From: Bacteroidota bacterium
GTDB lineage: Bacteria > Bacteroidota > Ignavibacteria > Kryptoniales > JAKASW01
Reading direction: 5' to 3'
Length of the DNA: 64,000 bases
NCBI GenBank assembly: GCA_021845665.1
Contig: JAJZVO010000006.1
Location: forward strand, 1 to 64,000
The notes under the pieces were generated by a model. The model saw only the letters and a list, made by a program, of their open reading frames with translations. It ran no database searches and had not been told where the DNA came from. Shown piece by piece: positions 33,658-60,564 of the stretch. Position 1 is the first letter of the stretch; each line of letters opens with the position of its first letter. Made by a program: the position numbers and the translations under genes.

Positions 33658-35160
33658 ATGAAGACCAAAGTCATAACCGAACAGGGTCGCGACAAAGCTC
33701 TGGCAACAATTAAGAAACCGGAAGTGATCGAGAGACAGAAACTGAATGTCAGGTATCACATCGAAGATCTCGATGTGAACGACCGCCCACGCCGTTTCCT
33801 CGAGGCTTTCGCTGCAATACTAAAGCACTCCAATTACAGAATGGTCCTCGATCATTTCACCCGCGTGACCGCAAGATGTTCGAGATGTGCGGTCGCCTGC
33901 CATATCTACCAGGCAACCGGCGATCCGAAGGACATCCCGTGTTATCGGTCTGGACTGCTGCTTGATGTCTACCGCCGCCATTTCACACTTGGGGGAATGA
34001 TCAGGGGGCGAATCACAGGAGGCGGATACATCACGGATGAGAAGATTGAAGAGATGGCTGATAGCTTTTACAATTGCACCGCGTGCAGAAGGTGCGCCCT
34101 TGAGTGTCCGCTCGGATTGGACCACGGCCTGGTTACTCACCTGGGCCGCTACATACTGAGCGAAATAGGTATAGTCCCGAGAGCCCTGGTTGTGAGCGTT
34201 CGGGCACAGTTAGAAGGCCCGTACCACAACACGTCCGCAGTGCCGGTCCCGGCGTTGAAAGATACAATCGAATTTCTCGAAGATGACATGTATGAAGAGA
34301 AATCGGTAAAAATAAAATTCCCTGCGGATGTCGAGGGAAGCGATTATGTTTTCTTCGCCCCCGTCAGCGATTACCTGATGGAGGCCGACACTCTTATGGG
34401 CATCGCGTCGGTCTTTGCCGCGACCGGCGATTCATGGACCATAGGGACAGAGAATTTTGACGCTATCAACTACGGCCTGTTCTATAACGACAGGATAATG
34501 GAGAGGGTAATCAAAAGGGTCGACAGCGAAGCGAGGAGACTTAACGGGAAGCAGGTCCTGATCGGAGAATGCGGACACGCGTCCCGCACGGCGAAGAATT
34601 TCCTTCCGACTTTTTGCGGAGGCAGCGATTCGTTACCGGTATTGAATATCCTTGAGTATACTCACAAGGCGTGGAGAGAAGGCAAACTGAAGCTTGACCC
34701 GGATGTCGTCACTGAGAAGGTTGCGTACCACGATCCGTGCAACCTCGCCAGGAACCGGTGGATCGTCGATCAGCCGCGCGAAGTGTTGAAATCCTTCTGC
34801 CGTAATTATGTGGAGATGACGCCGAAAGGAGAGGACAATATCTGCTGCGGCGGCGGAGGCGGGGCGGTCTCCATCGATGAGATACGCTCATATAGGATGA
34901 CAATCGGCGGAAAGCTGAAAGCGGAGCAAATCAGGAAATGCGGATGCGAAATCCTCGTGGCGCCTTGCGCGAACTGCAAGAAGCAGCTCAGGGAACTTGT
35001 CGAAGACCAGGGACTAAATTGCCGGGTTGTGGGGTTTCACGACCTGATCTATAAGGCGATCGACTTCGATGGTTCACTCAAGGTGCAACATGAAGAGGAC
35101 ACAACTTTAGATCCGGGCAAGTATAATCCGGGGCGGCCTTCGGACGGAAAGGGGAAGTAG
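33658..35160 (+). CDS. HdrD/DsrK/HmcF-like iron-sulfur subunit
   Basis: A 500-residue cytoplasmic protein. Two [4Fe-4S] motifs lie in the N-terminal half (ARCSRCAVACHIYQ and CTACRRCALECPLG). Two CCG-type cysteine clusters follow (GECGH...HDPCNLAR...CCGGGGG and APCANCKKQL), as in the catalytic subunit of heterodisulfide reductase and in HmcF, TmcB and DsrK. It differs from the true DsrK at 48807 by having CxxC (CANC) in the last cluster where DsrK has GCICAID. It likely exchanges electrons between the membrane and a thiol/disulfide or other cytoplasmic partner. The cytochrome b gene follows after 2 bp. Confidence 0.85.
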   Translation: MKTKVITEQGRDKALATIKKPEVIERQKLNVRYHIEDLDVNDRPRRFLEAFAAILKHSNYRMVLDHFTRVTARCSRCAVACHIYQATGDPKDIPCYRSGLLLDVYRRHFTLGGMIRGRITGGGYITDEKIEEMADSFYNCTACRRCALECPLGLDHGLVTHLGRYILSEIGIVPRALVVSVRAQLEGPYHNTSAVPVPALKDTIEFLEDDMYEEKSVKIKFPADVEGSDYVFFAPVSDYLMEADTLMGIASVFAATGDSWTIGTENFDAINYGLFYNDRIMERVIKRVDSEARRLNGKQVLIGECGHASRTAKNFLPTFCGGSDSLPVLNILEYTHKAWREGKLKLDPDVVTEKVAYHDPCNLARNRWIVDQPREVLKSFCRNYVEMTPKGEDNICCGGGGGAVSIDEIRSYRMTIGGKLKAEQIRKCGCEILVAPCANCKKQLRELVEDQGLNCRVVGFHDLIYKAIDFDGSLKVQHEEDTTLDPGKYNPGRPSDGKGK

Positions 35161-35162
35161 GC

Positions 35163-35858
35163 ATGGAATCCCTATTGCATTTTGCCCGCGGCCCTCTCTT
35201 TCGCCTCTGCTTCATGATAATGCTCCTTGGTCTCGCACGTATACTGTTCCTGGATTTATGGGAGGCATATAGGGCCTATCGCAAAGCCGGAGACAAGAAG
35301 ATGCCGTGGAGACTGATAGTGCGCCGCGGCCTTGAATGGGCTTTCCCAATGAAAAGAATATGGCGGAACCCGCAGCTCTATTCCTTCGTCTCCATACTGT
35401 TCCATATCGGGTTGATACTTGTGCCGGTGTTTCTGTTTGCGCACATCGATCTATGGAAAAGTGCGATTGGCATCTCATGGCCTGCGCTTCCGTTCCGGTG
35501 GGCCCTTTGGCTGACCATAAGCACGATTGTCTGTGCTGCCGTCCTGCTGATCGAGCGCTTGTCTGTGAAAGCGATACATTCATTGAGCCGCGGCCAGGAT
35601 TACTTCTGGCTTATTTTACTTCTCTTCCCTTTCGTAACGGGATTTGTCTGTGCGAACTTAAAGATCGGTGCCGGGCTGTACCAGTTTCTAATGCTTGTGC
35701 ATGTCCTTTCGGGTGATGTGATATTTCTCCTGATACCGTTTACGAAAATGGCTCACTGTGTGCTTGCCCCATTTTCGCAGATCATAGATGCCCTTGCGTG
35801 GAAATTTCCGCCGGCAACGGACCAGGACATATTGGAAACTCTAAATCCGAATCATTAA
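35163..35858 (+). CDS. NarI/DsrM/HmcE-like membrane cytochrome b subunit
   Basis: A 231-residue integral membrane protein with about five helices and histidines in helices 2 and 5 that could bind heme b (SILFHIGLILVPVFLFAHI, FLMLVHVLSGDVIFLLIPF). It resembles the gamma subunit of nitrate reductase, DsrM and HmcE, which oxidise or reduce menaquinol and pair with HdrD-like subunits. It follows the HdrD-like gene by 2 bp, a clear pair. Its last residues (ETLNPNH) run into an inverted-repeat element. Confidence 0.8.
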   Translation: MESLLHFARGPLFRLCFMIMLLGLARILFLDLWEAYRAYRKAGDKKMPWRLIVRRGLEWAFPMKRIWRNPQLYSFVSILFHIGLILVPVFLFAHIDLWKSAIGISWPALPFRWALWLTISTIVCAAVLLIERLSVKAIHSLSRGQDYFWLILLLFPFVTGFVCANLKIGAGLYQFLMLVHVLSGDVIFLLIPFTKMAHCVLAPFSQIIDALAWKFPPATDQDILETLNPNH

Positions 35859-35969
35859 ATACTATACAAATTCAAATGGGTGGAATTGGATTCAGTAATG
35901 GTGCCGAATTTGGGATATCTGTTTGAGTTTTGGATTTGTTTAGAGTTTACGATTTCGAATTTAGGAATT
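35838..35969. repeat. Inverted-repeat element, copy A
   Basis: The left arm near 35841-35877 contains ATACTATACAAATTCAAATG. The right arm near 35929-35965 contains GGATTTGTTTAGAGTTTACG. The arms are imperfect inverse complements enclosing about 50 bp of unrelated sequence. Related copies are at 41880, 50835 and 59891. The left arm overlaps the last codons of the cytochrome b gene. Confidence 0.75.
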
Positions 35970-36013
35970 CTAACGTCGCGAGCGTTTAAGTAAAATGAAG
36001 AGAAAGGCAGAGT

Positions 36014-36790
36014 GTGGCGTTGAGCAAAGCTATTCTAACTGATGTCACTAAATGTATCGGCTGCCTTAAGTGCGTAGAGGCGTGCAAAGATGTCAATCAC
36101 CTCGAAGCGGACGTCCCGAGAGTTTGGGACAAGAACGACGGGTTGTCCGCCGAAAATTGGACTTCGATCATACAAAAGCACGGAAAGCATTATGTCCGGA
36201 AGCTATGCCGTCATTGTCTGGAGCCTGCCTGCGTTTCGGTTTGTCCCGTCGGAGCACTGCGTAAGACAGAGATTGGCGCCGTGATTTATGACAGCGCGAA
36301 ATGCATGGGTTGCCGTTACTGCATGATGGTCTGTCCGTTCGGGATTCCCCGGTACGATTGGGACCAGACCGTGCCTCATGTCGAGAAGTGCATCCTTTGT
36401 TACGATAGGCTCAAAGAGGGTAAACAGCCGGCGTGTACCGAAGCGTGCCCGGAAAATGCGACGATCTTCGGAGATCGTGACGCCCTCTTGAAAGAAGCTC
36501 ACAAAAGAATAAGAGAGAATCCCGCGAAATATGTAAACAGGGTTTGGGGTGAGAATGAAGTCGGCGGAACTTCTGTGCTCTACATCTCCGATATTAATCT
36601 CGATTTCCTCTCATATCAGACCCGTCCGGTCGACATGCCGCTCCCGAAGGAGACTTTACCGGCAATGGAGGCTGTCCCTTATGCTTTTTTCGGGATGGGT
36701 GGAGTCATGCTCGGCCTTAGCTGGATTATCAAGCGGAGAATGAAGTTGAGCGGGGAGAAAAGCAATAAAGAGGATTCCACACATGAATAG
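36014..36790 (+). CDS. Four-cluster ferredoxin subunit (DsrO/HmcB/HybA-like), no Tat signal
   Basis: A 258-residue protein with four [4Fe-4S] motifs: CIGCLKCVEAC; CRHCLEPACVSVCP; CMGCRYCMMVCP; and CILCYDRL...CTEACP. A C-terminal membrane anchor (AFFGMGGVMLGLSWII) follows. It starts directly at the first cluster with GTG and has no twin-arginine signal in frame (in-frame stops lie just upstream), unlike DsrO at 51031. The final overlap ATGAATAG couples it to the NrfD fusion. It should carry electrons between the NrfD subunit and its partner. On which side of the membrane it sits is unclear. Confidence 0.83.
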   Translation: MALSKAILTDVTKCIGCLKCVEACKDVNHLEADVPRVWDKNDGLSAENWTSIIQKHGKHYVRKLCRHCLEPACVSVCPVGALRKTEIGAVIYDSAKCMGCRYCMMVCPFGIPRYDWDQTVPHVEKCILCYDRLKEGKQPACTEACPENATIFGDRDALLKEAHKRIRENPAKYVNRVWGENEVGGTSVLYISDINLDFLSYQTRPVDMPLPKETLPAMEAVPYAFFGMGGVMLGLSWIIKRRMKLSGEKSNKEDSTHE

Positions 36791-38696
36791 GGTGCACAAC
36801 ACGAAGATCGTCCTCTGGCTGATCACCGGGCTGGCAGCGGCGATCGCGCTCAACAGGTTCGTCTTCGGTCTCGGTGCGACAACGAATCTGAACGATGAAG
36901 TCCCCTGGGGTTTCTGGATAGGCTTCAAACTCAGCTGGGTCGCGCTGTCTGCCGGCGGTTTTGTGATCGGCGCCATCTTCTACATGATGAAACGCGAGAA
37001 GTTCCATTCGCTCGTCCGGATCGCAATACTGACCGCATTTCTCGGCTACAGCGCATTCATTGTCAGCCTGATATTCGACCTCGGTCTACCGTGGAACATA
37101 TGGCACATGATAATCTATTGGAACCCTAACTCGCCGCTTTTCGAAGTGGGGTGGTGCGTGATGCTTTATACAACGGTATTAGTACTCGAGTTTCTCCCCG
37201 TCCCGCTTGAAAATACAAGCCGTTACGCGACCGTAAGAGCATTCCTTCAGAAATTTCGTTTTCCAATCGTCCTCCTAGGTATAATGCTTTCGACTCTGCA
37301 CCAGTCTTCACTCGGCACATTGTTCCTCATCATGCCGCGGCGACTGTTTCCGTTGTTCTATTCCCACATAATTCCCATCGAGTTCTTCATTTCAGCGATC
37401 GCGGGCGGACTCCTGATGCTCGCCTTCGAGACGCTGGCGCTTCACTGGATGTACCGTCGCACACTTGAAACAGACCTCGTCCATGTGCTTTGCAGCGTCA
37501 GCGTGTGGATTCTCGGTCTGTACTTCCTTGTCAAAATCGGTGATGTAGCGCTAGAAGGGAAACTTGGCCTGCTGCTCGACGGGAGCTGGATGAGTTACCT
37601 TTACATCGTTGAGATGCTCCTGACGACCGTTATTCCTTTCGTCATGTTTGTTATGCCGAAGTGGTGCGCGAACAGAAGGGTTCAGTGGATCGGGACATCG
37701 ATAGGAATAGTCGGTGTTGTGCTGAACAGAATCGACATAGGCGGCTTTGCGATGCGCGATGCGACGCTATGGTACACTCCGTCGTGGATGGAGGTTGTGT
37801 TGAGCGTCGGCATTCTCTCGACCGCGGCGCTGGTCTTCCTTTTCATCATCGAGACTTTCCACGTATGGGATATTCAGCCTCGCGATCCGGAAGCTTTATC
37901 TCACACTCCTCCATTTTTCGACCGAGTTTCCGGTACCTGGCTCGGGAGCCCAAAGACCAGCGCACTGACAAGACATACTCTTGCCTTCGTGATCAGCTTT
38001 GCGGTAGGGATGGCTTTGATCTCCGGAAAGAGACTCCATGCCGAGGGGATTGAGAATGTAACAGTTCGGCCGGCGAGCGGGATCGATACCCTGTGCATCA
38101 ACGGTAACAGGGACAGTCAATTTGTCGAGTTCCCTCACCAGGCTCATATCGGTTGGATGAGAAGCGGCAGAATATCGTCCGTAACAATAGACAGTCTCCA
38201 CTACGTGTTGGGGGCCGGTGCCGACAGCTGCATCGTCTGTCACCATCTGGATGTCCCGGGAGAGAAACTAAGCAATTGCTGGGAATGTCACACGAGCATG
38301 TATAGCGAAGTAGATTTCTTCCGGCACGATTGGCACGCCTCTGCAAGCGGCGCCAATCTTAAGTGCGACGATTGTCACACGCCTGGTGAGACCAGAACCG
38401 GGCGTACGGCCAGGAAGTGTACCGCTTGCCACCCTTCCTACACTTTCGCTGACACCGCCGGGTATGGCCCGAACGCATACTACATACCGTCGTACGTCGA
38501 CGCTATGCACAAGCTGTGCGTCTCGTGTCATACAATTGAATCAAGAGTAATAAAAGACAAGCCGAACCTGGCTTTGTGTTCGACGTGTCACCGGACAGGT
38601 ACACCTCCGGGTTTAAGGGCCGGGATGAAGTGGGATGTGTCCCTGCCGCGTTTTGACAACGTGGTTCTTCCGACACCGGTGCGGGGTATTAGGTGA
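36783..38696 (+). CDS. NrfD/DsrP/HmcC-like membrane subunit fused to a hexaheme cytochrome c domain
   Basis: A 637-residue protein. Residues 1 to ~420 are a ten-helix NrfD-type quinone-interacting subunit (WGFWIGFKLSWVALSAGG, LSTLHQSSLGTLFLIMP). The last helix (~397-415) leads into a ~210-residue domain with six CXXCH heme c sites: CIVCH, CWECH, CDDCH, CTACH, CVSCH and CSTCH (residues ~482-605). The heme domain should be periplasmic. In Dsr, Hmc and related complexes the NrfD protein and cytochrome are separate gene products. Together with the three genes upstream it forms a complete quinone-linked redox complex, probably passing electrons across the membrane to or from the sulfite reduction machinery. 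Confidence 0.87.
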   Translation: MNRVHNTKIVLWLITGLAAAIALNRFVFGLGATTNLNDEVPWGFWIGFKLSWVALSAGGFVIGAIFYMMKREKFHSLVRIAILTAFLGYSAFIVSLIFDLGLPWNIWHMIIYWNPNSPLFEVGWCVMLYTTVLVLEFLPVPLENTSRYATVRAFLQKFRFPIVLLGIMLSTLHQSSLGTLFLIMPRRLFPLFYSHIIPIEFFISAIAGGLLMLAFETLALHWMYRRTLETDLVHVLCSVSVWILGLYFLVKIGDVALEGKLGLLLDGSWMSYLYIVEMLLTTVIPFVMFVMPKWCANRRVQWIGTSIGIVGVVLNRIDIGGFAMRDATLWYTPSWMEVVLSVGILSTAALVFLFIIETFHVWDIQPRDPEALSHTPPFFDRVSGTWLGSPKTSALTRHTLAFVISFAVGMALISGKRLHAEGIENVTVRPASGIDTLCINGNRDSQFVEFPHQAHIGWMRSGRISSVTIDSLHYVLGAGADSCIVCHHLDVPGEKLSNCWECHTSMYSEVDFFRHDWHASASGANLKCDDCHTPGETRTGRTARKCTACHPSYTFADTAGYGPNAYYIPSYVDAMHKLCVSCHTIESRVIKDKPNLALCSTCHRTGTPPGLRAGMKWDVSLPRFDNVVLPTPVRGIR

Positions 38697-39210: not shown

Positions 39211-40341
39211 ATGACGGTACAGTTATCAGCAGAATGCTTAGATCATCAGATCGGCCTGGTCTGTCCATTTTGTCGCAGTTTGAGAATCGTAAAACACGGA
39301 AGGACATCGGCTAACACTCTTCGCTATAGGTGTCTTTTCTGCAGAAAGACCTGGGTAAAGAACGGCTGCGACAGGCCGGGGCCTGATGTCGGGGCATTGG
39401 CGGAATCTTATCTCAACGGTAGCTCTTATAGAGACTTGCGGTCTATATTTCGGAGCTCTCCTATCAGGATCAACCAGAAGATCAGGGAATACTTGGCGGG
39501 ATGTTCGTCGTGGGAGGAATATCTGGATGCCTGCACTCCCAAGCACGAATCGCGCCTCATTCATCTTGTCGGAAAGAAATTCAAAGCAAAAGCAGGCGAC
39601 AGCAGCGGGCATTCGATGTATCTCGCGCTCGCAATAGACGCCCTCTCGACTGTCGTGCTCGGGTTCGAGATAGGCGATTGTGAGTCCGAGAATGTGTGGC
39701 TGTCGTTGCTGGACAGGATGAATTGCAGGGGATTCGCCTGCCCGACGTTCATGTCTTACGGATTCAAAGTTGTCGAAGACGCACTGAAGGTAGTGTTCCC
39801 TTATTCGGAGACGCTCCATAATTTCACGAGAACTTGCTATGATAAACACCTGAGAGAAGAACTAAGCCATTCTTTCGACACCCGGAAGTTGATTCTTGAA
39901 GCGGTGAGTGACCACATGAACGACCGTTCGTGCAGGCTGGAGGACTATCTGGTCATCTTCAAAGACAAGCGGATGAAACAAATAGTTCTCAATTCGAAAG
40001 AGTATTTTCTAAAGCGTCTCCAGGAAAGGATGATACAGCAGCCGTGTACGCGTTTTGAAGGGCTGCTTGGAGCTTTCGAGAAGAGATTCGAGAAGTTCCA
40101 CATGATAAAATACGATCCTTATCCGGTAGTAAACGCCTGGATAGCATGGTGGATGCTTGAGCCCCTTCCCATCGGTTTCAGCAGGCTCTCGCTTTATCTT
40201 CAGTGTCCATGTGAGACTCACTTCAGGAACTTCAACTGCGGGACACTTCCGAGGCAACTCCAACTTCCTCTCGACGATCCGGCCACCAGGAATTTCGTCG
40301 TCGAGCTCGCAGTGAGGTCGCTCCAGATTCCGGTAAAGTAA
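39211..40341 (+). CDS. IS256/IS1249-type transposase-like protein with missing catalytic aspartates
   Basis: A 376-residue intact frame. An N-terminal zinc ribbon (CPFCRS...RCLFCRKTW) and an HTH-like segment (~60-90) are followed by an IS256/MULE-like core (LALAIDALSTVVLGFEIGD, ENVWLSLLDRMNCRGF, ALKVVFPYSETLHNF). Aligned by eye to the family, the first catalytic Asp position is Val120 (HLVGKKF) and the second is Tyr183 (MSYGF). The third acidic residue appears kept as Glu283 (TRFEGLLGAFEKRF), and the usual CxxH after the second Asp is also lost. It is therefore probably unable to transpose and may survive as a DNA-binding protein. AAAGG precedes the ATG. It is transcribed toward dsrA, 343 bp downstream. 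Confidence 0.7.
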   Translation: MTVQLSAECLDHQIGLVCPFCRSLRIVKHGRTSANTLRYRCLFCRKTWVKNGCDRPGPDVGALAESYLNGSSYRDLRSIFRSSPIRINQKIREYLAGCSSWEEYLDACTPKHESRLIHLVGKKFKAKAGDSSGHSMYLALAIDALSTVVLGFEIGDCESENVWLSLLDRMNCRGFACPTFMSYGFKVVEDALKVVFPYSETLHNFTRTCYDKHLREELSHSFDTRKLILEAVSDHMNDRSCRLEDYLVIFKDKRMKQIVLNSKEYFLKRLQERMIQQPCTRFEGLLGAFEKRFEKFHMIKYDPYPVVNAWIAWWMLEPLPIGFSRLSLYLQCPCETHFRNFNCGTLPRQLQLPLDDPATRNFVVELAVRSLQIPVK

Positions 40342-40684: not shown

Positions 40685-41896
40685 ATGCCTGACAAAAAAA
40701 GAAAGACGCCGAAGCTGGATGAACTTGAAAAGGGAGAATGGCCAAGTTTTGTCAAGGAGATAAAGAGTGCTGCGGACAAGAATGCGATGGCTAATGATTT
40801 GTTGGGCCAGCTCGAGCGTTCTTACGAGGAGAAGATCGGTCACTGGAAGCATGGCGGGATCGTCGGCGTGCTCGGATATGGCGGCGGCGTCATCGGAAGA
40901 TACTCGGATCTGCCCGAAGAGTTCCCGAGCGTGTCCCACTTCCATACCATGCGCATCAATCAGCCCGCGGGATGGTTCTATACCTCCGATGTGCTCAGAA
41001 AATTATGCGACATATGGGAAAAGCACGGATCGGGACTGACGAACATGCACGGCTCCACCGGTGACCTGGTGTTCCTGGGCACGAGGACCGAAGAGCTCGA
41101 ACCGACTTTCAAGGAGTTGACAGATCTCGGCTTCGATCTCGGCGGTTCCGGTTCGGATGTCAGGACTCCCAGCTGCTGCTGCGGAATGGCGCGGTGCGAA
41201 TGGGCATGCTACGATACAATGGCACTCACTTATTTCCTCACGATGCATTACCAGGATGAGCTCCATCGGCCGGCGTTTCCATACAAATGGAAATTCAAAA
41301 TGTCCGGCTGTCCGAACGACTGCGTTGCTGCAATAGCCCGCTCGGATATGTCGATCATCGGAACCTGGAGAGACGACATCCAGGTCGACGAAGCTGCTGT
41401 CACCGAGTGTGCTAAAGCCGGGATGGACATACAAAAGGACGTCGTCGGGAATTGTCCGGCAAAGTGTATGGATTGGGATGGGAAGAAGCTGAAGATCGAC
41501 AACAAATCATGTGTCAAGTGCATGCACTGCATTAACGCCATGCCTAAGGCGCTCGCGCCGGGAAAAGACCGCGGGGCTTGCATTCTGATTGGCGCTAAGG
41601 CACCCATCGTGGAGGGAGCTCTCCTTTCCTCGGTCCTCATACCGTTCATCAAGCTTGAGCCTCCATACACCGAGCTGATCGAACTTGTCGACAAAATTCA
41701 CGAGGTCTGGTCCGAGAACGGAAAGAACAGGGAAAGAATCGGAGAATTCATCCAGAGAGTCGGGATGGGGAATTTCCTAGAGGCGATCGGCGTGGAGCCG
41801 ATTCCCGAAATGGTTGCTCATCCTCGGGAGAATCCCTATGTGTTCTATGAGGAATATTTCGAAGAAGACGAATCACAAGAAAATCCTAAACGCTAA
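40685..41896 (+). CDS. dsrA: Dissimilatory sulfite reductase alpha subunit
   Basis: A 403-residue protein of normal DsrA length. The siroheme/[4Fe-4S] cysteines are present in [15 protein letters not shown] and [10 protein letters not shown]. The inserted ferredoxin domain has [18 protein letters not shown] with the typical spacing. With DsrB it reduces sulfite, handing the sulfur to DsrC, in the cytoplasm. It is the first gene of dsrABD-N-L-C. The last codons (ENPKR) and stop lie within the left arm of an inverted-repeat element, so the natural C-terminus may have been altered. Confidence 0.97.
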
Positions 41897-42021
41897 ACAA
41901 ATTCAAATGAGCGAATTTAAGAATGAAGAAAACCACTACGCCGGAAAAGGGTACTCCTGTCTTTCAGGTTGTGATTCTGGATTTCGTGCTTGTTTAGAGT
42001 CTAGGATTTAGAGGTTTTAAT
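41880..42021. repeat. Inverted-repeat element, copy B (between dsrA and dsrB)
   Basis: Left arm AAATCCTAAACGCTAAACAA (41881-41900), right arm TTGTTTAGAGTCTAGGATTT (near 41990-42009), near-perfect inverse complements with about 90 bp between. It fills the dsrA-dsrB gap and includes the last codons of dsrA. It could fold into a long hairpin in the dsr transcript. Confidence 0.8.
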
Positions 42022-42062
42022 TGTTTTTGAATGGGAAAAATAAGTGTTCATAAGGAGCTGAG

Positions 42063-43151
42063 ATGCCTGAAGTTCAACCGAAACCGCAGAGAAAAACCGA
42101 TATTGGACCGCCGCATTACGAGAAGTTCCTGCCGCCCATAATAAAGCAAAACTACGGCAAGTGGAAATATCATGAGATCCTGAAGCCGGGTGTTATGGTC
42201 ACCGTTTCAGAAAGCGGCGCTAAGCTTTATACTGTTAGGGCCGGTTCTCCCAGGCTTCTGAGCATCGACAAGATACGCGCGTACGCAGACCTTGCGGATA
42301 AATATTCGAACGGTTTTCTGAGATTCACCAGCCGAAACAATGTGGAGTTTCTCGTGACCGACGAGTCGAAGATCGATCCGTTGATTGCCGACCTCCGCGC
42401 GCTCGGACATCCGGTCGGCGGGATGGGCAATTCGATATCTAGCATCGTTCATACACAGGGATGGGTCCACTGCCATTCGGCGGCCACGGACGCGTCGGGT
42501 GTCGTCAAGTCGGTGATGGACGAACTTGTCGATTACTTCACTGAGATGAAGCTTCCTGGCAAACTCAGGATAGCGCTTGCATGCTGCCTGAATATGTGCG
42601 GCGCCGTTCACTGTTCAGACATCGCCGTGCTCGGAATTCACCGCCGCCCACCGAAGGTGGACCGAAGTAAACTGAAGGCGATGTGCGAGATACCTGCTGT
42701 CGTATCTGCATGTCCGACCGCCGCTGTCAGACCTGCTACCATTGACGGCGCCCCCTCGGTAGAAGTCATCGAAGAAAGGTGCATGTTCTGCGCCAATTGC
42801 TACACGGTCTGCCCGGCGATGAAGCTTAACGATCCGTTGAACGACGGCCTGTCGATCTGGGTCGGCGGCAAGGTCTCCAACGCAAGAAGCGAACCGATGT
42901 TCTCGAAGCTCGCGATTCCATTCCTGCCGAACAATCCGCCGAGATGGCCTGAAGTCACCGACGCAGTGAGGAATCTCGTCGAAGTGTGGGCGAAGAACGC
43001 TAGGAAATACGAAAGAATGGGCGAGTGGATCAACCGAATCGGCTGGCCGAGATTCTTCGAGTTGACAGGCATCCCTTTCCAGAAAGAACATATCGACGAT
43101 TTTAAGCATGCGGGTTTGACGTTTAAGCGATCCGTGCATTTGACTCACTAA
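42063..43151 (+). CDS. dsrB: Dissimilatory sulfite reductase beta subunit
   Basis: A 362-residue protein of normal DsrB length. Landmarks are [36 protein letters not shown], the cofactor cysteines in [16 protein letters not shown], and a ferredoxin domain with [16 protein letters not shown]. It contains the active siroheme site of the alpha2beta2 enzyme. An AAGGAG site lies before the ATG. It is separated from dsrA by an inverted-repeat element and followed 11 bp later by dsrD. Confidence 0.97.
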
Positions 43152-43162
43152 AGGAGACGGCC

Positions 43163-43411
43163 ATGGGAGATCAAGTAAGCGTTCAGGAAGTCTCTGACGC
43201 GATGTATAAAATGATTAAGGACAGCATGGGCCAGAAGAAGTGGAAAGCCACCGATTTGACGAAAGCCGTTACTGAAATGTTCGGCGAGAGATGTGACAAG
43301 AACACTGCGAAGTCCGCTATCAGGGAATTGATCGAGAGCGGGAAGTGCGTCTATACCTACTTCGGCGGAAGTTTCATCGAGATTCCTCACAAGGAAGGAG
43401 CCGAGAATTAA
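43163..43411 (+). CDS. dsrD: DsrD, winged-helix activator of sulfite reductase
   Basis: An 82-residue winged-helix protein (KWKATDLTKAVTEMFG, TAKSAIRELIESGKCVYT, FGGSFIEIP). It follows dsrB in the canonical position and resembles DsrD in length and in the small helical-plus-wing pattern. DsrD is found mainly in organisms reducing sulfate or sulfite, and published work describes it as an activator of DsrAB. Its presence argues for the reductive direction here. AAGGAGACGG precedes the ATG. Confidence 0.9.
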   Translation: MGDQVSVQEVSDAMYKMIKDSMGQKKWKATDLTKAVTEMFGERCDKNTAKSAIRELIESGKCVYTYFGGSFIEIPHKEGAEN

Positions 43412-43464
43412 TTCCAAAATGTCGAATTCGAGGACCTAAATAACTCAAGTCAAATCGATAACCT

Positions 43465-44943
43465 ATGGGTGGCTCTAATTACGCGCGAGTTGTCATAGCT
43501 GGTTTGTCAGGCGACTCCGGAAAAACATTGGTGTCGTGCGGCCTTCTCGGATGCTTCAGGGAACGAGGCCTCGATGTATCCGCATTCAAGAAAGGCCCGG
43601 ATTATATCGACCCGGCCTGGCTGGGTCTCGCTTCCGGCAAGCCTGCGAGGAATCTCGACACCTTCCTCATGGGATTCGATGCGGCGAAGGAATCTTTCAT
43701 GCGGCGCGCCTCAAGGGAAGGCATCAATGTCGTGGAGGGGAACAGGGGACTATTCGACGGCCTGGACAGCGTGGGAACGCACAGCACCGCGGAACTCGCA
43801 AAGCTCCTGGAGGCCCCCGTGATACTCATCCTTAATATTTCGAAAGTCACGCGCACGGCGGCGGCGATCGTACTCGGATGTAATGGTCTGGATCCTTCGA
43901 TGAAGATCGCGGGCGTGATTCTGAATAATGCAGCTAATGCGAGGCATGCCTCCGTCGCGAAACACGCGATCGAATCTGTGTCCGGAGTCCATGTGTTCGG
44001 TGCGATCCCGAAGCTGCCCGAAAGCTCTACTCTCCCGTCGAGACATCTTGGACTAATAATGCCCGGTGAATATAGGATGGCTCTTTCGTTTCTGAAAGAA
44101 GCAAAACAAATCATGGGAGACAATGTCGATATAGCCGGATTAGGGCATATTGCCTTCAACGCGGTCCCTCTGGAATACTGCGGGGCGCCGGAAGCTGAAG
44201 TGACAGCGTGTGGGCATGTTTCTGAAGGAATGCGCATAGCGTATTTCAAGGATGAATCGTTTTCATTCTACTATCCCGAGAACCTCGAAGCTCTCGAGTT
44301 AGCGGGTGCGACACTTGTTCCAATTTCTCCAAGCCGCGGGGTGTTGAGCGATGACATAGATGCACTTTACATCGGCGGCGGCTTGCCCGAAATGAATTTG
44401 AATGACCTCGTCCTCAACAGGGAGATGCTCGAACGCGTGAAGCTGCGTGCCGAGAGAGGCCTGCCGATCTACGCGGAGTGTGCCGGGTTGATGTATCTCG
44501 CGAGTTGTCTGGAGTGGAATGGCAATGCGTATCGTATGTCCGGCGTCTTGCCGATCACGGTGCGCGTGAGCAGGAAACCACAAGGACATGGTTATTGCGA
44601 AGCATCGGTGGACGGTAAGAACGCGTTCTTTAGACAGGGAAGTGTGCTGAAAGGGCATGAGTTTCATTATTCAAGGATCGTCGACCACGACGCGGGTTTG
44701 AGAACTTCGCTTCGTTTAACCCGTGGAGTTGGCAGCTTCGACAAGAGAGACGGTCTGACGTACAAGAATGTGTTCGCAAGTTACATGCATTTACACGCGA
44801 CGTCGTGCCCCGAATGGGCAAGCGGCATGATCGAGTGCGCAAGAAAATACACGGATTTCAGAAAGGGAATTAACCGCAAAGACCGCGAAGACTCTCGCAA
44901 AGGACTCGAAGAGAGGCCGGTACCGCAGCTGTCACGAGTGTGA
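43465..44943 (+). CDS. dsrN: Siroheme amidase / cobyrinate a,c-diamide synthase-like (DsrN)
   Basis: A 492-residue CbiA/CobB-type protein. The N-terminal P-loop domain has IAGLSGDSGKTLVS and KKGPDYIDPAWL. The C-terminal glutamine amidotransferase domain has the nucleophile cysteine in YAECAGLMYLAS and the histidine in GHEFHYSRI. In dsr operons this protein (DsrN) amidates the siroheme of DsrAB; a cobalamin role is the alternative. The final ~20 residues (NRKDREDSRKGLEERP) are encoded by what looks like a fragment of an AACCGCAAAGACCGCGAAG-type repeat, so the tail may be foreign. Confidence 0.9.
   Translation: MGGSNYARVVIAGLSGDSGKTLVSCGLLGCFRERGLDVSAFKKGPDYIDPAWLGLASGKPARNLDTFLMGFDAAKESFMRRASREGINVVEGNRGLFDGLDSVGTHSTAELAKLLEAPVILILNISKVTRTAAAIVLGCNGLDPSMKIAGVILNNAANARHASVAKHAIESVSGVHVFGAIPKLPESSTLPSRHLGLIMPGEYRMALSFLKEAKQIMGDNVDIAGLGHIAFNAVPLEYCGAPEAEVTACGHVSEGMRIAYFKDESFSFYYPENLEALELAGATLVPISPSRGVLSDDIDALYIGGGLPEMNLNDLVLNREMLERVKLRAERGLPIYAECAGLMYLASCLEWNGNAYRMSGVLPITVRVSRKPQGHGYCEASVDGKNAFFRQGSVLKGHEFHYSRIVDHDAGLRTSLRLTRGVGSFDKRDGLTYKNVFASYMHLHATSCPEWASGMIECARKYTDFRKGINRKDREDSRKGLEERPVPQLSRV
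44870..44911 (+). repeat. AACCGC(C)AAAG-type repeat fragment in the 3' end of dsrN
   Basis: AACCGCAAAGACCGCGAAG followed by ACTCTCGCAAAGGACTCGAAG. It resembles the stretches at 53037 and 53869, with the same TTAACC-C-AAAG opening. Confidence 0.45.
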
Positions 44944-44993
44944 TGCTTGCTTCGCAGGTCGTGCCCTTAGTGTCAGAAAATTGAGTACATGAA

Positions 44994-46679
44994 ATGGCAA
45001 AGATAGTAAAGAAAGTGTCTAGACCGTTAGGAGGCCTCAGGTCGCAGTCGGGTGGAAGCTCGTCGCGCGAGACATCGCCGCTGCGTCCTGTGCAGGTGCT
45101 GAAGACGCCGCCGTGTTCGGAGGGCTGTCCCAACGGAACGAGCATCAGGGAGTTCCTTACCGTTATCGGGCAGTCGGAGGACTCCGGGCGACCGTACCCT
45201 GAATCGTTCCGCAAGGCCTGGGAAATACTCACAGAGAAAAATCCCCTTCCGGCCGTGTGCGGGCGGGTCTGCCCGCATCCTTGTGAAGACGGGTGCAACA
45301 GAGGTCAGAAGGACGGCGCAATCGGCATAAACAATCTAGAGAGATTTGTCGGAGACTACGCGCTCGAGAATGGCTTTAAACTGCAACGTTTGTCGGATTC
45401 GTCATACCCTCAGAAAGTCGCTGTTATCGGCGCCGGACCGGCGGGCCTGTCGTGCGCGTACCAACTCGCGAGAAGAGGATACGGCGTGACGATCTACGAA
45501 GCCTTCAGCAAGCCGGGCGGAATGTTGAGGTATGGCATTCCCGATTACCGGCTCCCTTCGGATGTCCTTGACAAAGAGATCAGGAGGATCGAAGAGCTCG
45601 GCGTGGAGATTAAATGCAACCAGAGCGTAGGGCGCGACATACCTTACGAGGAGCTTCAGAAGAATTATGATGCGATCTTCGTCGGGATCGGCGCACACAA
45701 GGGCCGGCTCCTCGGCGTTCCGAATGAGGAAGCTGACAACGTCCTTACCGGTACCCAGTTCCTTAACAGAATCAATTCAGGCGAGCCTGTCGAAGTCGGC
45801 GATAAAGTACTCGTGGTCGGTGCTGGAGACACGGCTATCGATACGGCACGGGTCTCGCGGCGGCTCGGCGCGGATGTCACGATCGTCTATCGCAGGACAA
45901 GGGACGAAATGCCCGCGATCAAAGAAGAGATCGCCGGTGCAGAAGAGGAAGGCGTCAAGCTTGTGTTCCTTGCAGCGCCCGTAGCCTTCGAGCGAAACGG
46001 GACCAGGGTCACGAGGATGAAATGCCAGAGAATGGAGCTTGGCGAGCCCGATTCTTCCGGCAGAAGAACGCCCGTCCCGGTCCCCGATTCCTTCTTTTAC
46101 CTGGATGCCACCATGGTCATTGCCGCCATAAGTCAGCAACCGGACTTTACAGGCCTTGATGTACTTCACGACGGTAAAGAATGGATCAAAGCCGACCGGG
46201 ATGGTGCAACATTGCTTCCCAACACTTACGCGGGGGGCGATGACCTGGAATTGGGATTGGTGACGATAGCGATCTTCAACGGCAGGAGGGCCGCGGAGAC
46301 AATCCACAACAAATTCCAGAACATACAGCCTGAACCGGAACAGAAGCCCCCTGTAATCACTCATGACAAAATCATTTTGAGTTATTACGGGAGCAAGCTG
46401 AGGAACGAAGCCTTCAGGCTTTCACCGGACGAACGTTTAAAGAATATGGATGGTGAGATAACATCGACGCTTACGGAAGCGCAGGCGATCGACGAGGCAA
46501 TGAGATGCATGAGCTGCGGCTCGTGCTTCGACTGCGGGACATGCTGGAGCTATTGCCAGGACCAGGTCATAGTGAAACCGCTCACTAAACACGGCACCTA
46601 CAAGTACAAGCTCGATTTTTGTATAGGCTGTAAGAAATGCGCGGACAACTGTCCGTGCGGATATATAGAGATGAAGTAG
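44994..46679 (+). CDS. dsrL: DsrL-like NAD(P)H-dependent iron-sulfur flavoprotein
   Basis: A 561-residue protein of the glutamate-synthase small-subunit type. The N-terminal cysteine region (CSEGCPN...CGRVCPHPCEDGC) is followed by an FAD fold (VAVIGAGPAGLSCAYQLA), an NAD(P) fold (VLVVGAGDTAIDTARVSRRLG) and a C-terminal ferredoxin pair (CMSCGSCFDCGTCWSYC and CIGCKKCADNCPCG). In dsr loci DsrL links NAD(P)H to DsrAB. It is classic in sulfur oxidizers, and a distinct type occurs in some reducers and disproportionators. It is shorter than the ~650-residue oxidizer form. Phylogeny is needed to type it. Position between dsrN and dsrC supports the assignment over a general GltD. Confidence 0.87.
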   Translation: MAKIVKKVSRPLGGLRSQSGGSSSRETSPLRPVQVLKTPPCSEGCPNGTSIREFLTVIGQSEDSGRPYPESFRKAWEILTEKNPLPAVCGRVCPHPCEDGCNRGQKDGAIGINNLERFVGDYALENGFKLQRLSDSSYPQKVAVIGAGPAGLSCAYQLARRGYGVTIYEAFSKPGGMLRYGIPDYRLPSDVLDKEIRRIEELGVEIKCNQSVGRDIPYEELQKNYDAIFVGIGAHKGRLLGVPNEEADNVLTGTQFLNRINSGEPVEVGDKVLVVGAGDTAIDTARVSRRLGADVTIVYRRTRDEMPAIKEEIAGAEEEGVKLVFLAAPVAFERNGTRVTRMKCQRMELGEPDSSGRRTPVPVPDSFFYLDATMVIAAISQQPDFTGLDVLHDGKEWIKADRDGATLLPNTYAGGDDLELGLVTIAIFNGRRAAETIHNKFQNIQPEPEQKPPVITHDKIILSYYGSKLRNEAFRLSPDERLKNMDGEITSTLTEAQAIDEAMRCMSCGSCFDCGTCWSYCQDQVIVKPLTKHGTYKYKLDFCIGCKKCADNCPCGYIEMK

Positions 46680-46717: not shown

Positions 46718-47035
46718 ATGCCGACATTTGAATATGGAAATGTCAAGGTTGAAGTCGATGAAGACGGCTTCATGCAGAGACCGGAGGATTGGAACGAGGA
46801 TGTCGCGAAAGCACTCGCCACGACTGAAGACGTGAAGGAGATGACCGAAGCACACTGGAAGATCGTGTACTATCTTCGCGATTATTACAAGAAGTACGGC
46901 ATCGCTCCTATGATTAGAAAGGTGTGCAAAGAGACGGGCTTTTCCCTGAAAGAAATATATGACCTCTACCCGTCCGGACCTGCAAAAGGGGCCTGCAAAG
47001 TGGCGGGGCTTGCAAAGCCGACAGGGTGCGTCTAA
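46718..47035 (+). CDS. dsrC: DsrC sulfur carrier protein
   Basis: A 105-residue protein, with the start at the ATG at 46718; a longer in-frame extension into dsrL is unlikely. The C-terminal arm GACKVAGLAKPTGCV carries both functional cysteines (Cys93 and Cys104) and the KPTGCV end that defines true DsrC over TusE-like relatives. It carries the sulfur product of DsrAB as a trisulfide that DsrMKJOP is thought to reduce. A short U-tailed hairpin follows, which separates this unit from the dsrMKJOP unit. Confidence 0.97.
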   Translation: MPTFEYGNVKVEVDEDGFMQRPEDWNEDVAKALATTEDVKEMTEAHWKIVYYLRDYYKKYGIAPMIRKVCKETGFSLKEIYDLYPSGPAKGACKVAGLAKPTGCV

Positions 47036-47187: not shown

Positions 47188-47733
47188 ATGGTGTATTCTG
47201 TGAAGGCTAGTCTACAAGAAATATTGTTGCGGAAGAAAACTTCGATTGTTGATAAGTGGGTCCAGAGGTTTCTAAGCTACTACCCCTCGGAAAGCATGAA
47301 GTTCCTGTCGTCACAAAAGGACAGGTTTGCGAATCCGGTCGGCTACACCATTTCGAGCAGCGCCGGAGCGATCTTCGATGAACTTGTCGGTGACGGCGAT
47401 TTCCTCGTGACCGAATTGCTCCTGAAGGATGTGGTGAGGATCAGGGCGGTACAGGAATTCCTACCTTCGCAGGCGATAAGGTTCGTGTTCGATCTCAAGG
47501 AGATAATGCGAAGTGAAATCGAAAAGGAAGCTCGCGAAAAGGGATGGCGGGATGAATTCTCTGAGGTCGAGTCAAGGATAGACGGTCTTGCCTTGATCGC
47601 TTTCGACTCGTACATGGAGTCCAGGGAGAAACTCTTCAAGATTCGCATCGATGAGGTAAAAGCCAGATCCTTCCAAACAATAGTGGCAAGTGGAGCCGGG
47701 ATAAACAACAGGGAGAAAAGGAATGGCGACTGA
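47188..47733 (+). CDS. RsbRD N-terminal domain-like protein
   Basis: A 181-residue, mostly helical protein resembling the RsbT co-antagonist RsbRD N-terminal domain (LLRKKTSIVDKWVQRFLSYYP, FANPVGYTISSSAGAIFDEL). Similar genes often sit just upstream of dsrM in sulfate reducers, so a sensor or regulatory role linked to the DsrMKJOP complex is plausible but unproven. No clear ribosome site is seen before the ATG at 47188. It starts a second dsr transcription unit after the dsrC terminator. Confidence 0.78.
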   Translation: MVYSVKASLQEILLRKKTSIVDKWVQRFLSYYPSESMKFLSSQKDRFANPVGYTISSSAGAIFDELVGDGDFLVTELLLKDVVRIRAVQEFLPSQAIRFVFDLKEIMRSEIEKEAREKGWRDEFSEVESRIDGLALIAFDSYMESREKLFKIRIDEVKARSFQTIVASGAGINNREKRNGD

Positions 47734-47815
47734 TATCATGCAATTGAAGTCCGGCTCGCTTTTGATACGGGCAAAAGGCGACGGAACATCTTGCCGTAAA
47801 GGGAATAAGAGATGA
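47723..47815 (+). CDS. Possible 30-aa peptide between the RsbRD-like gene and dsrM
   Basis: A 30-codon frame (MATDIMQLKSGSLLIRAKG...) preceded by AAAAGGA at close spacing. It overlaps the end of the RsbRD-like gene by 11 bp and the dsrM start by ATGA. The double overlap suggests translational coupling through to dsrM. The product is unrecognised and the frame could be accidental. Confidence 0.3.
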   Translation: MATDIMQLKSGSLLIRAKGDGTSCRKGNKR

Positions 47816-48804
47816 ACGCCATCTTTTCACTCGTTGCGGTCATTGTGATAATAGCCGCCGCGTTTCTCGGAGCGAGCATTCCGCGGCTCGATTTCTTGTT
47901 CGGAGTCGTATTTCCTTACGCCGCCATTACCGTATTCCTGGCGGGCATAATCTACCGGGTCATAAAATGGTCGGCTTCGCCCGTGCCTTTTCACATCCCA
48001 ACTGTCGCAGGACAGCAGAAGTCTCTCCCGTGGATAAAGGACAGCCCGTTGGAGAGTCCCCACAATACCTGGGGCGTTATAGGAAGAATGGCTCTCGAAA
48101 TTTTGTTCTTCAGGTCGCTCTTCAGAAATACTAAGATGGAGATGAAGAGCGGACCGAAGCTGGTATACGGCAGCAGCAAATACCTTTGGCTGGGGGCGAT
48201 AGCGTTTCACTGGTCTATGCTGATTATCGTGCTGCGTCACCTGAGACTTTTCATGCAGCCGATTCCGTCGTTTGTGTTGGGACTCGACAGCCTGGACGGT
48301 TTCTTCCAGGTTGGATTGCCGGGACTCTATATAACGGATGTCCTCATTCTCATTGCGCTGTCCTATCTTATCTTGAGACGTCTCACCGTCCGGAGGATCA
48401 GGTACTTCTCTCTTGCCTCAGATTATTTTCCTCTCTTCCTCCTTTTCAGCATCGCGGGTACAGGTGTCCTTATGAGGTACTTCTACAGGATAGACCTCGT
48501 AAACGTCAAAGAGCTGGCTGTCGGATTGTTCTCGTTTCACCCAGCCGTACCGCAGGGCACCGGAGTGTTGTTTTACGTCCACCTCTTCCTGGTGTGTACG
48601 CTCCTGGCATATTTCCCGTTCAGCAAACTGATGCACATGCCGGGAATTTTTCTTTCACCGACAAGAAACCTGGCAAACAACAGCCGTATGAAGAGGCACG
48701 TCAACACGTGGAATCATCCGGTGAGAGTTCACACATACGAGGAATACGAGGATGAGTTCAGGGAGAAGATGAGAGAAGCGGGATTGCCTTTGGACAAGGA
48801 ATAG
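47812..48804 (+). CDS. dsrM: DsrM, membrane cytochrome b subunit
   Basis: A 330-residue integral membrane protein with about six helices of the NarI type (WLGAIAFHWSMLIIVLRHLR and VLFYVHLFLVCTLLAYFPFSKLMH carry histidines suited to heme b). The conserved DsrM C-terminal tail NTWNHPVRVHTYEEYEDEF is present. DsrM oxidises menaquinol and passes electrons to DsrK. AAAGGG lies 8 bases before the ATG. dsrK follows after 2 bp. Confidence 0.95.
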   Translation: MNAIFSLVAVIVIIAAAFLGASIPRLDFLFGVVFPYAAITVFLAGIIYRVIKWSASPVPFHIPTVAGQQKSLPWIKDSPLESPHNTWGVIGRMALEILFFRSLFRNTKMEMKSGPKLVYGSSKYLWLGAIAFHWSMLIIVLRHLRLFMQPIPSFVLGLDSLDGFFQVGLPGLYITDVLILIALSYLILRRLTVRRIRYFSLASDYFPLFLLFSIAGTGVLMRYFYRIDLVNVKELAVGLFSFHPAVPQGTGVLFYVHLFLVCTLLAYFPFSKLMHMPGIFLSPTRNLANNSRMKRHVNTWNHPVRVHTYEEYEDEFREKMREAGLPLDKE

Positions 48805-48806
48805 AA

Positions 48807-50426
48807 ATGGCCGGACCGAAATTAAAACCAGAAGAATTAGCCAGCAAGATCAAGTACAATCTTCCGCCGAATGGCTGGATGGATCAGCCTGTCGAATTCA
48901 GAGAGGGGACCTTCAACTACAGCGGTAATCCCAAAAATGTGGAGTACCTTCAGCTCCCCAATCCGAGAAAGTGGCAGCCGACGGATCCTGACTGGCAGCT
49001 TCCTGAGAACTGGAAGGAAATCATACTCGAAGGACTCAGGGACAGGCTGCACAGGTTCCGCTCGCTGCAGATTTTCATGGATATTTGCGTGCGATGCGGG
49101 GCTTGCGCCGACAAATGTCATTTCTTCATAGGCTCCGGCGATCCGAAAAACATGCCGGTCATGCGTGCCGAGCTGCTCAGGGCCGTGTACCGGAAGGATT
49201 TCACACTTGCAGGGAAAATATTCGGAAAATATGCGGGTGCGCGGGAGCTGACGCTCGACGTCGTGAAGGAATGGTTCTACTATTTTTACCAGTGTACCCA
49301 ATGCCGGCGCTGTTCGGTCTTTTGTCCCTACGGCATCGACACTGCTGAAATTACATTGCTGGTCCGCGAACTGCTGAGTCTCATAGGTGTCAACATCGAT
49401 TGGATTGTCACCCCCGTTGCTAACAGCTTCAGGACGGGCAACCATCTCGGCATCCAGCCTCACGGATTTAAAGACAGCATCGACTTTGCCGTCGATGAGC
49501 TTGAGTCGATTACAGGTGTGAAAGTCGAAGCGCCGATCAACAAGAAAGGCGCGGAGATACTCTTCATTACTCCATCAGCCGATTACTTCGGCAGCCCTCA
49601 CTATTACACGCTGCTCGGTTACCTCGCGCTGTTCCACGAGATAGGTCTCGATTATACCTGGAGCACTTACGCTTCGGAAGGGGGCAATTTCGGCTCATTC
49701 CTTTCGCACGATATGATGAAGAGCCTCAATGCCAAGATGTATGCCGAGGCGAGGCGGCTCGGGGTCAAATGGATACTCGGCGGCGAGTGCGGCCATATGT
49801 GGAGAGTCGTCCACCAGTATATGAACACGCTCAACGGCCCAGCCGATTTTCTGGAAGAACCTGTTTCCCCGGTGACGGGGACGAAGTTCGGGAACGCCAG
49901 GTCGACAAAGATGGTACACATCTGTGAGTTCACGGCAGACCTGATCAAGAACGGCAAGATCAAGCTCGACAAGAGCCGGAACGATAACCGGCGGGTAACA
50001 TTTCACGATTCGTGCAACCCGGCGAGGGCTTTGGGCCTGATAGAAGAACCGCGGTTCATAATCAGGAACGCATGCAACAATTTTTTCGAGATGCCTGAGA
50101 ATACAATCAAGGAGCAGACATTTTGCTGCGGAAGCGGCGCCGGGCTCGGAACCGACGAGAACCTTGAAATGAGAATGAGAGGCGGACTGCCGAGAGCCAA
50201 TGCCGTGAAGTTCGTGAAGGAGAAGCACGGCGTCAATTTCCTCGGCTGCATTTGTGCGATCGACAAGGCGACGCTTCCGCCGCTTATGGAGTACTGGGTC
50301 GGCGGCGTCGACGTCGGAGGCGTTCATGAGCTCGTCGGCAATGCGCTCATCATGAAGGGCGAAAAGGAGCGAACGACGGACCTCCGAGGAGACCCGCTTC
50401 ATATCGAAGGGAATAGGCATGTATGA
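48807..50426 (+). CDS. dsrK: DsrK, HdrD-like catalytic iron-sulfur subunit
   Basis: A 539-residue protein. Two ferredoxin motifs are present (CVRCGACADKCHFF and CTQCRRCSVFCPYG). The HdrD-type cysteine set follows (GECGHMWR, HDSCNPARA, FCCGSGAG and GCICAIDKATLPP). It is the proposed site where the DsrC trisulfide is reduced on the cytoplasmic side. The characteristic DsrK N-terminal segment (LPPNGWMDQPVEF) separates it from the paralog at 33658. It overlaps dsrJ by 8 bp. Confidence 0.96.
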   Translation: MAGPKLKPEELASKIKYNLPPNGWMDQPVEFREGTFNYSGNPKNVEYLQLPNPRKWQPTDPDWQLPENWKEIILEGLRDRLHRFRSLQIFMDICVRCGACADKCHFFIGSGDPKNMPVMRAELLRAVYRKDFTLAGKIFGKYAGARELTLDVVKEWFYYFYQCTQCRRCSVFCPYGIDTAEITLLVRELLSLIGVNIDWIVTPVANSFRTGNHLGIQPHGFKDSIDFAVDELESITGVKVEAPINKKGAEILFITPSADYFGSPHYYTLLGYLALFHEIGLDYTWSTYASEGGNFGSFLSHDMMKSLNAKMYAEARRLGVKWILGGECGHMWRVVHQYMNTLNGPADFLEEPVSPVTGTKFGNARSTKMVHICEFTADLIKNGKIKLDKSRNDNRRVTFHDSCNPARALGLIEEPRFIIRNACNNFFEMPENTIKEQTFCCGSGAGLGTDENLEMRMRGGLPRANAVKFVKEKHGVNFLGCICAIDKATLPPLMEYWVGGVDVGGVHELVGNALIMKGEKERTTDLRGDPLHIEGNRHV

Positions 50427-50913: not shown

Positions 50914-50972
50914 GTGTGACCAATGCGGTTTATGACATTAGGATTTGTTTAGAGTTTAATGTTTAGGATTTT
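50835..50972. repeat. Inverted-repeat element, copy C (in the 3' end of dsrJ)
   Basis: The left arm at 50837-50867 contains CGAAATTCTAAACAAACACC. The right arm at 50940-50972 contains AGGATTTGTTTAGAGTTTAA. The element supplies the last ~25 codons and the stop of dsrJ. Confidence 0.78.
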
Positions 50973-51030
50973 GAGCTTCCTTCGCATCGTTCAAGAAATT
51001 CAGATCAGAGTCTAAGAATCCGGAAGATGA

Positions 51031-51834: not shown

Positions 51835-51843
51835 GGTGCACAA

Positions 51844-60548: not shown

Positions 60549-60564
60549 GGAGGTTTGAATAACA

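Follow-up and report, generated by a model that had tools for sequence, protein, structure and literature searches.

The described complexes closest to the one reported here are Hmc of Desulfovibrio, DsrMKJOP, Tmc, and the group formed by Qrc and alternative complex III. In Tmc, the tetrahaem cytochrome is a separate subunit, and the complex is not known to contain an NrfD protein. Among the NrfD-type subunits, HmcC, QrcD and HybB were grouped together and considered likely electrogenic, and HmcC was placed next to the electrogenic QrcD, with quinone reduction suggested (Duarte et al. 2018, PMC6303296). Here, we analyzed a stretch of 64,000 nucleotides from a Bacteroidota bacterium (positions 1 to 64,000 of contig JAJZVO010000006.1, assembly GCA_021845665.1; the whole stretch is called the window). 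An initial annotation of the window had noted four adjacent genes at 33658-38696, encoding an HdrD-like protein, a cytochrome b, a four-cluster ferredoxin and an NrfD protein, with a cytochrome carrying six CXXCH sites fused to the NrfD C-terminus. The coordinates and the number of genes were correct, and the fusion is one uninterrupted open reading frame (ORF) of 637 amino acids (aa). The features of this putative complex are as follows.

33658..35160, + strand: HdrD/DsrK/HmcF/TmcB-like cytoplasmic iron-sulfur subunit, 500 aa (profile matches)
35163..35858, + strand: TmcC/HmcE-like membrane cytochrome b, 231 aa (NCBIfam)
36014..36790, + strand: HmcB-like ferredoxin, 258 aa, GTG start, 16 Cys for four [4Fe-4S] clusters (NCBIfam)
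36783..38696, + strand: fusion of an HmcC-like NrfD protein and a hexahaem cytochrome c, 637 aa (NCBIfam HmcC; Pfam NrfD and Cytochrom_CIII)
36783..37862, + strand: NrfD part of the fusion, residues 1-360, 10 predicted transmembrane helices (AlphaFold2, AF2, model)
37971..38024, + strand: 11th hydrophobic helix, residues 397-414, with [LIVA]-x-[SAG] at 418-420 (candidate internal signal or anchor)
38088..38600, + strand: hexahaem class III (HmcA-like) cytochrome domain, residues 436-606 (six CXXCH, distal His, profiles)

Subunits and the fused cytochrome

The cysteines of the six CXXCH motifs in the fusion ORF are at residues 483, 499, 528, 546, 579 and 599, with no stop codon or frameshift, and all six motifs are invariant among 77 sequences. 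Six further histidines are conserved in the haem domain (H452, H488, H515, H518 and H576 in 100% and H455 in 92% of 78 sequences), which is the number required for six bis-His haems. The best match of the domain in the PDB was the 16-haem cytochrome 1z1n (E-value 1.9e-21). All 26 haem domains compared matched the NCBIfam HmcA model below its cut-off (26.5 versus 400 bits for the window), and 4 of the 26 matched QrcA; the kinship to HmcA rests on these sequence profiles, as the Foldseek/VIA match did not extend over the haem domain.

The same ORF matched Pfam NrfD above the gathering score, as well as Pfam Cytochrom_CIII. Across residues 8-363 it scored 257 bits with NCBIfam HmcC (cut-off 550), compared with 32 bits for DsrP (cut-off 350) and 122 for QrcD (cut-off 570). 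In the AF2 model of the fusion protein (predicted local distance difference test score, pLDDT, 79.8; 77-sequence alignment), the NrfD part aligned with ActC of alternative complex III (VIA-align Z 32.4, root-mean-square deviation 3.0 over 351 residues, residues 1-364) and with menaquinone-bound PsrC (Z 18.9). On this evidence, the NrfD part is a member of the NrfD superfamily with the ActC/PsrC fold and a putative quinone site.

Cytoplasmic loops average 1.8-4.6 Lys and Arg residues and periplasmic loops 0.2-1.0, suggesting that the N-terminus is inside and that both ends of the NrfD part are cytoplasmic. From the helix count and the charges, the 11th helix would carry the haem domain to the periplasm, the only side on which c-type haem is known to be attached. 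The segment that follows the NrfD part starts with basic residues and continues with a hydrophobic core, mostly 15-19 residues long, a Pro or Ser and then [LIVA]-x-[SAG]. In this it is similar to a Sec signal placed internally; the single polypeptide that had been proposed therefore holds at the gene level, and the mature protein may be split in two. If signal peptidase I cut after residue 420, as in a polyprotein such as the cytochrome b-c1 precursor FbcH of Bradyrhizobium, the products would be an NrfD protein that keeps the former signal as an additional helix and a hexahaem cytochrome that is free and peripheral, and the electron route would be unchanged. We regard such cleavage as possible but on the unlikely side. 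The signal-like segment is in place and the -3/-1 rule is satisfied at 418/420 in 77% of 77 sequences, but it is satisfied as often at 420/422 (77%) and more often at 431/433 (84%), suggesting that the pattern is unspecific and that cleavage should be treated as a possibility. Moreover, the Thermoanaerobaculia and Myxococcota branches lack the pattern, and an uncleaved anchor accounts for the topology equally well.

The HdrD-like subunit, with Pfam CCG and Fer4_8 domains, was matched best by NCBIfam DsrK (281.6 bits, cut-off 400), followed by HmcF (210, cut-off 750) and TmcB (203, cut-off 735). Eight cysteines for two [4Fe-4S] clusters and the CCG cysteines C305, C361, C396, C397, C437 and C440 were all invariant among 64 homologues. 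The cytochrome b subunit was closest to TmcC (126.5 bits, cut-off 240), with HmcE at 112 (cut-off 275). Its histidines H81 (94%), H94 (100%), H180 (100%) and H198 (92%) align with the four of DsrM, and two haems b are therefore expected. The ferredoxin scored 236 bits with HmcB (cut-off 420), 203.8 with HybA (cut-off 263) and 113 with DsrO (cut-off 200); its 16 cysteines are invariant among 77 homologues, and it ends in a single C-terminal hydrophobic helix.

The higher score of the HdrD-like subunit with DsrK than with HmcF would suit a divergent second DsrMKJOP in which dsrJ became fused to dsrP. We consider this very improbable, because the NrfD part and the ferredoxin score far better with HmcC and HmcB than with DsrP and DsrO (257 versus 32 and 236 versus 113 bits), the six haems match HmcA and not the trihaem DsrJ, and a complete dsrMKJOP with its own dsrJ is present separately. 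The initial annotation had likened the four genes to the core of Hmc or of DsrMKJOP: the first likeness was borne out by the ferredoxin and the NrfD part, and the second was not, although the HdrD-like subunit is best matched by DsrK.

No export leader was found in any homologue of the ferredoxin, and an all-frame search of the window upstream of the gene for a missing or frame-shifted twin-arginine translocation (Tat) leader found none. The ferredoxin start codon overlaps or abuts the cytochrome b stop codon in most genomes. DsrO and HybA possess Tat leaders, and compared with the HmcB model the ferredoxin here is about 32 residues shorter at the N-terminus. The missing leader argues for a cytoplasmic ferredoxin. 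In favour of a periplasmic one are the basic residues that follow the C-terminal helix and the strong conservation of the periplasmic loops in the NrfD part. An unfused HmcB/HmcC-like pair in the same genome (L129; genome G000, contig C25, 5060-7097) has a leaderless ferredoxin too; this pair is flanked by GcvH-like (lipoyl-domain) proteins and is widespread in the class. In the window, the cytochrome b and ferredoxin genes are separated by an AT-rich stretch (35859-36013). At the equivalent place, some congeners have a small four-helix-bundle-like ORF (L035, 7018-7434; L039, 6729-7136), and in others the two genes overlap.

Distribution of the fusion and its association with dsr

Seven of the 13 congeneric genomes carry the full-length fusion (65-91% identity), one of them in two copies. 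A scan of named genomes gave 80 fusion loci (40-91% identity), and the complete ORFs all had exactly six CXXCH motifs in one frame; in the exception, L092, a contig edge precedes the haem domain. The hosts were Kryptoniota, Bacteroidota (including Kapabacteria), Ignavibacteriota, Zixibacteria, Calditrichota, Electryoneota, LCP-89, Acidobacteriota, Myxococcota, Bdellovibrionota and Chloroflexota, labels that were taken from the titles of records, mostly metagenome-assembled genomes (MAGs), so that some may reflect binning errors. In a tree of the NrfD part, one branch (support 100/99) split the 80 fused sequences from 22 unfused paralogues of the same class, which fits a single fusion event. 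The fusion is the standard form of a conserved family in about ten phyla.

These results also bear on whether the fusion is real. A frameshift or assembly error joining two genes, against which the initial annotation had warned, is effectively ruled out by the congeners and by the occurrence of the fusion on about 80 independent contigs at 40-91% identity; the one point in its favour is that few characterised complexes have such an architecture. The same annotation had called the fusion unusual, while allowing that it might be standard in a described family. It is no local oddity and is standard in its family, but no description of that family was found in the papers on NrfD proteins or dsr diversity that were searched (PMC8076601, PMC10504309, PMC10591310, PMC6338057, PMC6018796, PMC8528874, PMC10564751, PMC7596348); an earlier mention may exist elsewhere. 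The fusion form is apparently undescribed. The NrfD proteins of the acidobacterial MAG CO124 were classed as DsrP, QrcD, HydB and DmsC (PMC10564751), and we found that this MAG carries the fusion (L090). The idea that its 'qrcABCD' is a mislabelled fusion complex was rejected, because a true QrcD above cut-off (582/570) is present besides the fusion. Also rejected was L125 (208 aa) as a stand-alone hexahaem relative, its ORF being cut by the contig end.

In the genome G012 (84% complete), two copies of the complex and dsrA were observed on contigs C1 and C39 (L035 and L034), which represent either a duplication or two strains in one bin. The end branch of the NrfD part of the window (36783-37862) is 0.59, compared with about 0.03-0.2 in congeners; judged by branch length, this is faster evolution in this lineage. 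It is common to the two G012 copies, which depart from the other congeners at the same sites as the window does.

The linkage with dsr is strong, as seen from gene order in two phyla and co-occurrence in several. Within the genus, the fusion was present in 7 of 7 genomes with dsrA and in 0 of 6 others (P 6e-4), and among Acidobacteriota (n = 199) it was present in 11 genomes, all within the 20 that have dsrA, versus 0 of 179 without (P 5e-13); these P values ignore phylogeny, and related genomes are not independent. The search for NrfD joined to CXXCH motifs and for its co-occurrence with dsr, which had been suggested at the outset, yielded the 80 loci, and across phyla dsrA was above cut-off in 42 of 50 fusion genomes and present as a fragment in one more (43 of 50). 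The fusion was not found in 44 other dsrA genomes of the window's phylum, which all belong to one family and are presumed to be green sulfur bacteria whose Dsr is oxidative. A dsrA scan of viral contigs gave no matches. The gene order on one Acidobacteriota contig (L130), complex-dsrA-dsrB-dsrL-dsrN-dsrC-RsbRD-dsrM-dsrK, is nearly that of the window, and on two more Acidobacteriota contigs the complex adjoins dsrJOP (L116) or dsrN and sat (L085). Most other clusters contain PAS sensors and response regulators, with dsr elsewhere in the genome.

The window itself is nearly a whole sulfate-reduction island. As first annotated, the complex is directly beside dsr: dsrA starts at 40685, 1,989 base pairs downstream of the fusion gene, with one transposase-like ORF in the gap. 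The neighbouring features are as follows.

39211..40341, + strand: IS1/IS256-like transposase-like ORF, a neighbour outside the proposed complex (profile similarity)
40685..46679, + strand: dsrA, dsrB, dsrN (CobB-like) and dsrL (dsrA 586 and dsrB 510 bits, above cut-offs)
44994..46679, + strand: dsrL, PRK12771-type NAD(P)-binding protein (YRR motif of DsrL-2)
46718..47035, + strand: dsrC with a C-terminal two-Cys arm (Pfam DsrC 130 bits; NCBIfam 118 bits, above cut-off)
47188..47733: RsbRD_N-domain gene between dsrC and dsrM
47812..53001, + strand: canonical dsrM, dsrK, dsrJ (3 haems), dsrO (Tat-type leader MSISRRTILK) and dsrP (all five above NCBIfam equivalog cut-offs)
Downstream of dsrMKJOP: two HdrA-like (QmoAB-type) genes and sat
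60105-62439, downstream of dsrMKJOP: ORFs reading as putative aprBA

Because a complete dsrMKJOP is present separately in the window (47812-53001), the four genes form a second complex and are not the organism's DsrMKJOP, in agreement with the 'second route' that had been proposed. The YRR motif is reported for DsrL-2, the type that accompanies reductive DsrAB (Loeffler et al., PMC7596348), and the DsrL of the window carries it. A search for the DsrF-type TIGR03010 gave no match, and the DsrD profile PF08679 matched nothing in the genome, the control likewise being without any match.

The transposase-like ORF, with similarity to the IS1/IS256-type zinc ribbon and catalytic region, separates the complex from dsrA in almost every congener that has dsr (66-93% identity) and is missing from the similarly ordered Acidobacteriota cluster; it is perhaps a domesticated transposase or a regulator. 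In some congeners (L040, L052, L053), an extra DsrM/DsrK-like pair with response regulators is inserted downstream of the fusion gene, ahead of the transposase-like one. The RsbRD_N-domain gene, a possible dsr regulator, has a homologue at the equivalent place in the Acidobacteriota dsr cluster on L130.

Proposed electron flow

We propose, with a probability of about 50%, that the products of the four genes form a compact transmembrane redox complex of the Hmc type in organisms with reductive dsr, through which electrons flow from the periplasm to menaquinone and/or DsrC. Small c-type cytochromes, with H2, formate or a partner cell as their source of electrons, would supply the six-haem domain from the periplasm. 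The electrons would then reach the NrfD part, which would exchange them with menaquinone near the periplasmic face and take up protons from the cytoplasm. In addition or instead, they would travel by way of the HmcE-like subunit, with its two haems b, to the HdrD-like subunit, where a CCG-type cluster would reduce a disulfide or trisulfide in the cytoplasm, DsrC being the most likely partner. The complex would act beside DsrMKJOP, in a role like that thought for Hmc, Tmc and Qrc in Desulfovibrio. The uptake of periplasmic electrons and the reduction of menaquinone are proposed because of the homology with HmcC, QrcD and HybB, and we infer the direction of the electrons, the reaction with menaquinone and DsrC as the partner.

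Several points weigh against this proposal. The direction of the electrons is uncertain even for Hmc of Desulfovibrio. The ferredoxin is leaderless, though DsrO, HybA and, by the length of its model, HmcB have leaders, so the electron path proposed from the haem domain to the quinone is a tentative one. Furthermore, six or seven fusion genomes, mostly of Myxococcota, Bdellovibrionota and unplaced MAGs, have no detected dsrA, suggesting that the complex can serve without Dsr. These genomes would also fit an outward flow, in which the complex oxidises menaquinol or a cytoplasmic thiol and uses the hexahaem domain to hand the electrons to acceptors in the periplasm or outside the cell. It would then serve as a redox valve or in syntrophy and metal reduction, and its tie to dsr would be genomic only. 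The PAS sensor and response regulators in the clusters of most relatives would suit such a redox-responsive use, and NrfD complexes operate in either direction. However, the strong positive association with dsrA among congeners and Acidobacteriota, the gene order of the dsr clusters in two phyla, a CCG-type HdrD-like subunit that suits a cytoplasmic thiol acceptor, and the suggestion that the kin of HmcC favour quinone reduction (PMC6303296) make outward flow unlikely.

The proposal of inward flow can be extended in a way that we hold to be speculative and rather doubtful: outside the classical sulfate reducers, an anciently fused Hmc-type complex would be dedicated to conducting electrons from the periplasm to the cytoplasm for reductive Dsr. 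Its ferredoxin would be cytoplasmic, the haems contacting the quinone site directly on one face and the ferredoxin serving the other. If true, this wiring would be unlike that of all NrfD complexes whose iron-sulfur partner is periplasmic. The complex is a good candidate for how electrons move across the membrane in many little-known sulfate reducers. Most of what is known of sulfate reducers other than Desulfobacterota (Zixibacteria, Acidobacteriota, Calditrichota, Ignavibacteria, Kryptoniota and others) comes from metagenomes, and this conserved module is a testable candidate for the coupling of periplasmic electrons to Dsr in them. The leaderless ferredoxin and the fused cytochrome together offer a compact system for studying the wiring of NrfD complexes, and the fusion is a useful genomic marker, which in the Acidobacteriota sample occurred only in dsrA genomes.

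Comparison with described complexes

With DsrMKJOP, the complex shares the four module types and a c-type cytochrome, an HdrD-like subunit nearest DsrK, and the four haem-b histidines of DsrM. It differs in that its NrfD and ferredoxin subunits are not DsrP and DsrO and in having six haems instead of three; DsrK, DsrO and DsrP are below cut-off, and the DsrM model was not among the reported hits. The resemblance to Tmc (TmcABCD) lies in the cytochrome b, which is best matched by TmcC, and in the HdrD-like subunit, which is also near TmcB, both below cut-off. Qrc and alternative complex III share the NrfD fold, and a hexahaem cytochrome stands beside a 10-helix NrfD protein here as in QrcA and QrcD, whereas the operon here is without a molybdopterin-type QrcB/ActB gene and the QrcD match is below cut-off.

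The closest likeness is to Hmc of Desulfovibrio (HmcABCDEF). Homologues of HmcB, HmcC, HmcE and HmcF are found in one operon with a cytochrome domain of the HmcA/class III kind, and the set of modules and their order are similar (HdrD-like protein, cytochrome b, HybA-like ferredoxin, 10-helix NrfD protein and HmcA-like haem domain). No HmcD was found at the complex. Here, however, a six-haem cytochrome is fused to the HmcC-like subunit, whereas Hmc has a separate secreted 16-haem HmcA; the curated HmcC model spans 376 positions, compared with 637 aa here; and the homologues of HmcF, HmcE, HmcB and HmcC are all well below their equivalog cut-offs. Because it fails the Hmc cut-offs and is without a separate 16-haem cytochrome, we name the complex Hmc-like and not Hmc: as judged from its profile scores, it is a compact Hmc-like complex outside the Hmc equivalog.

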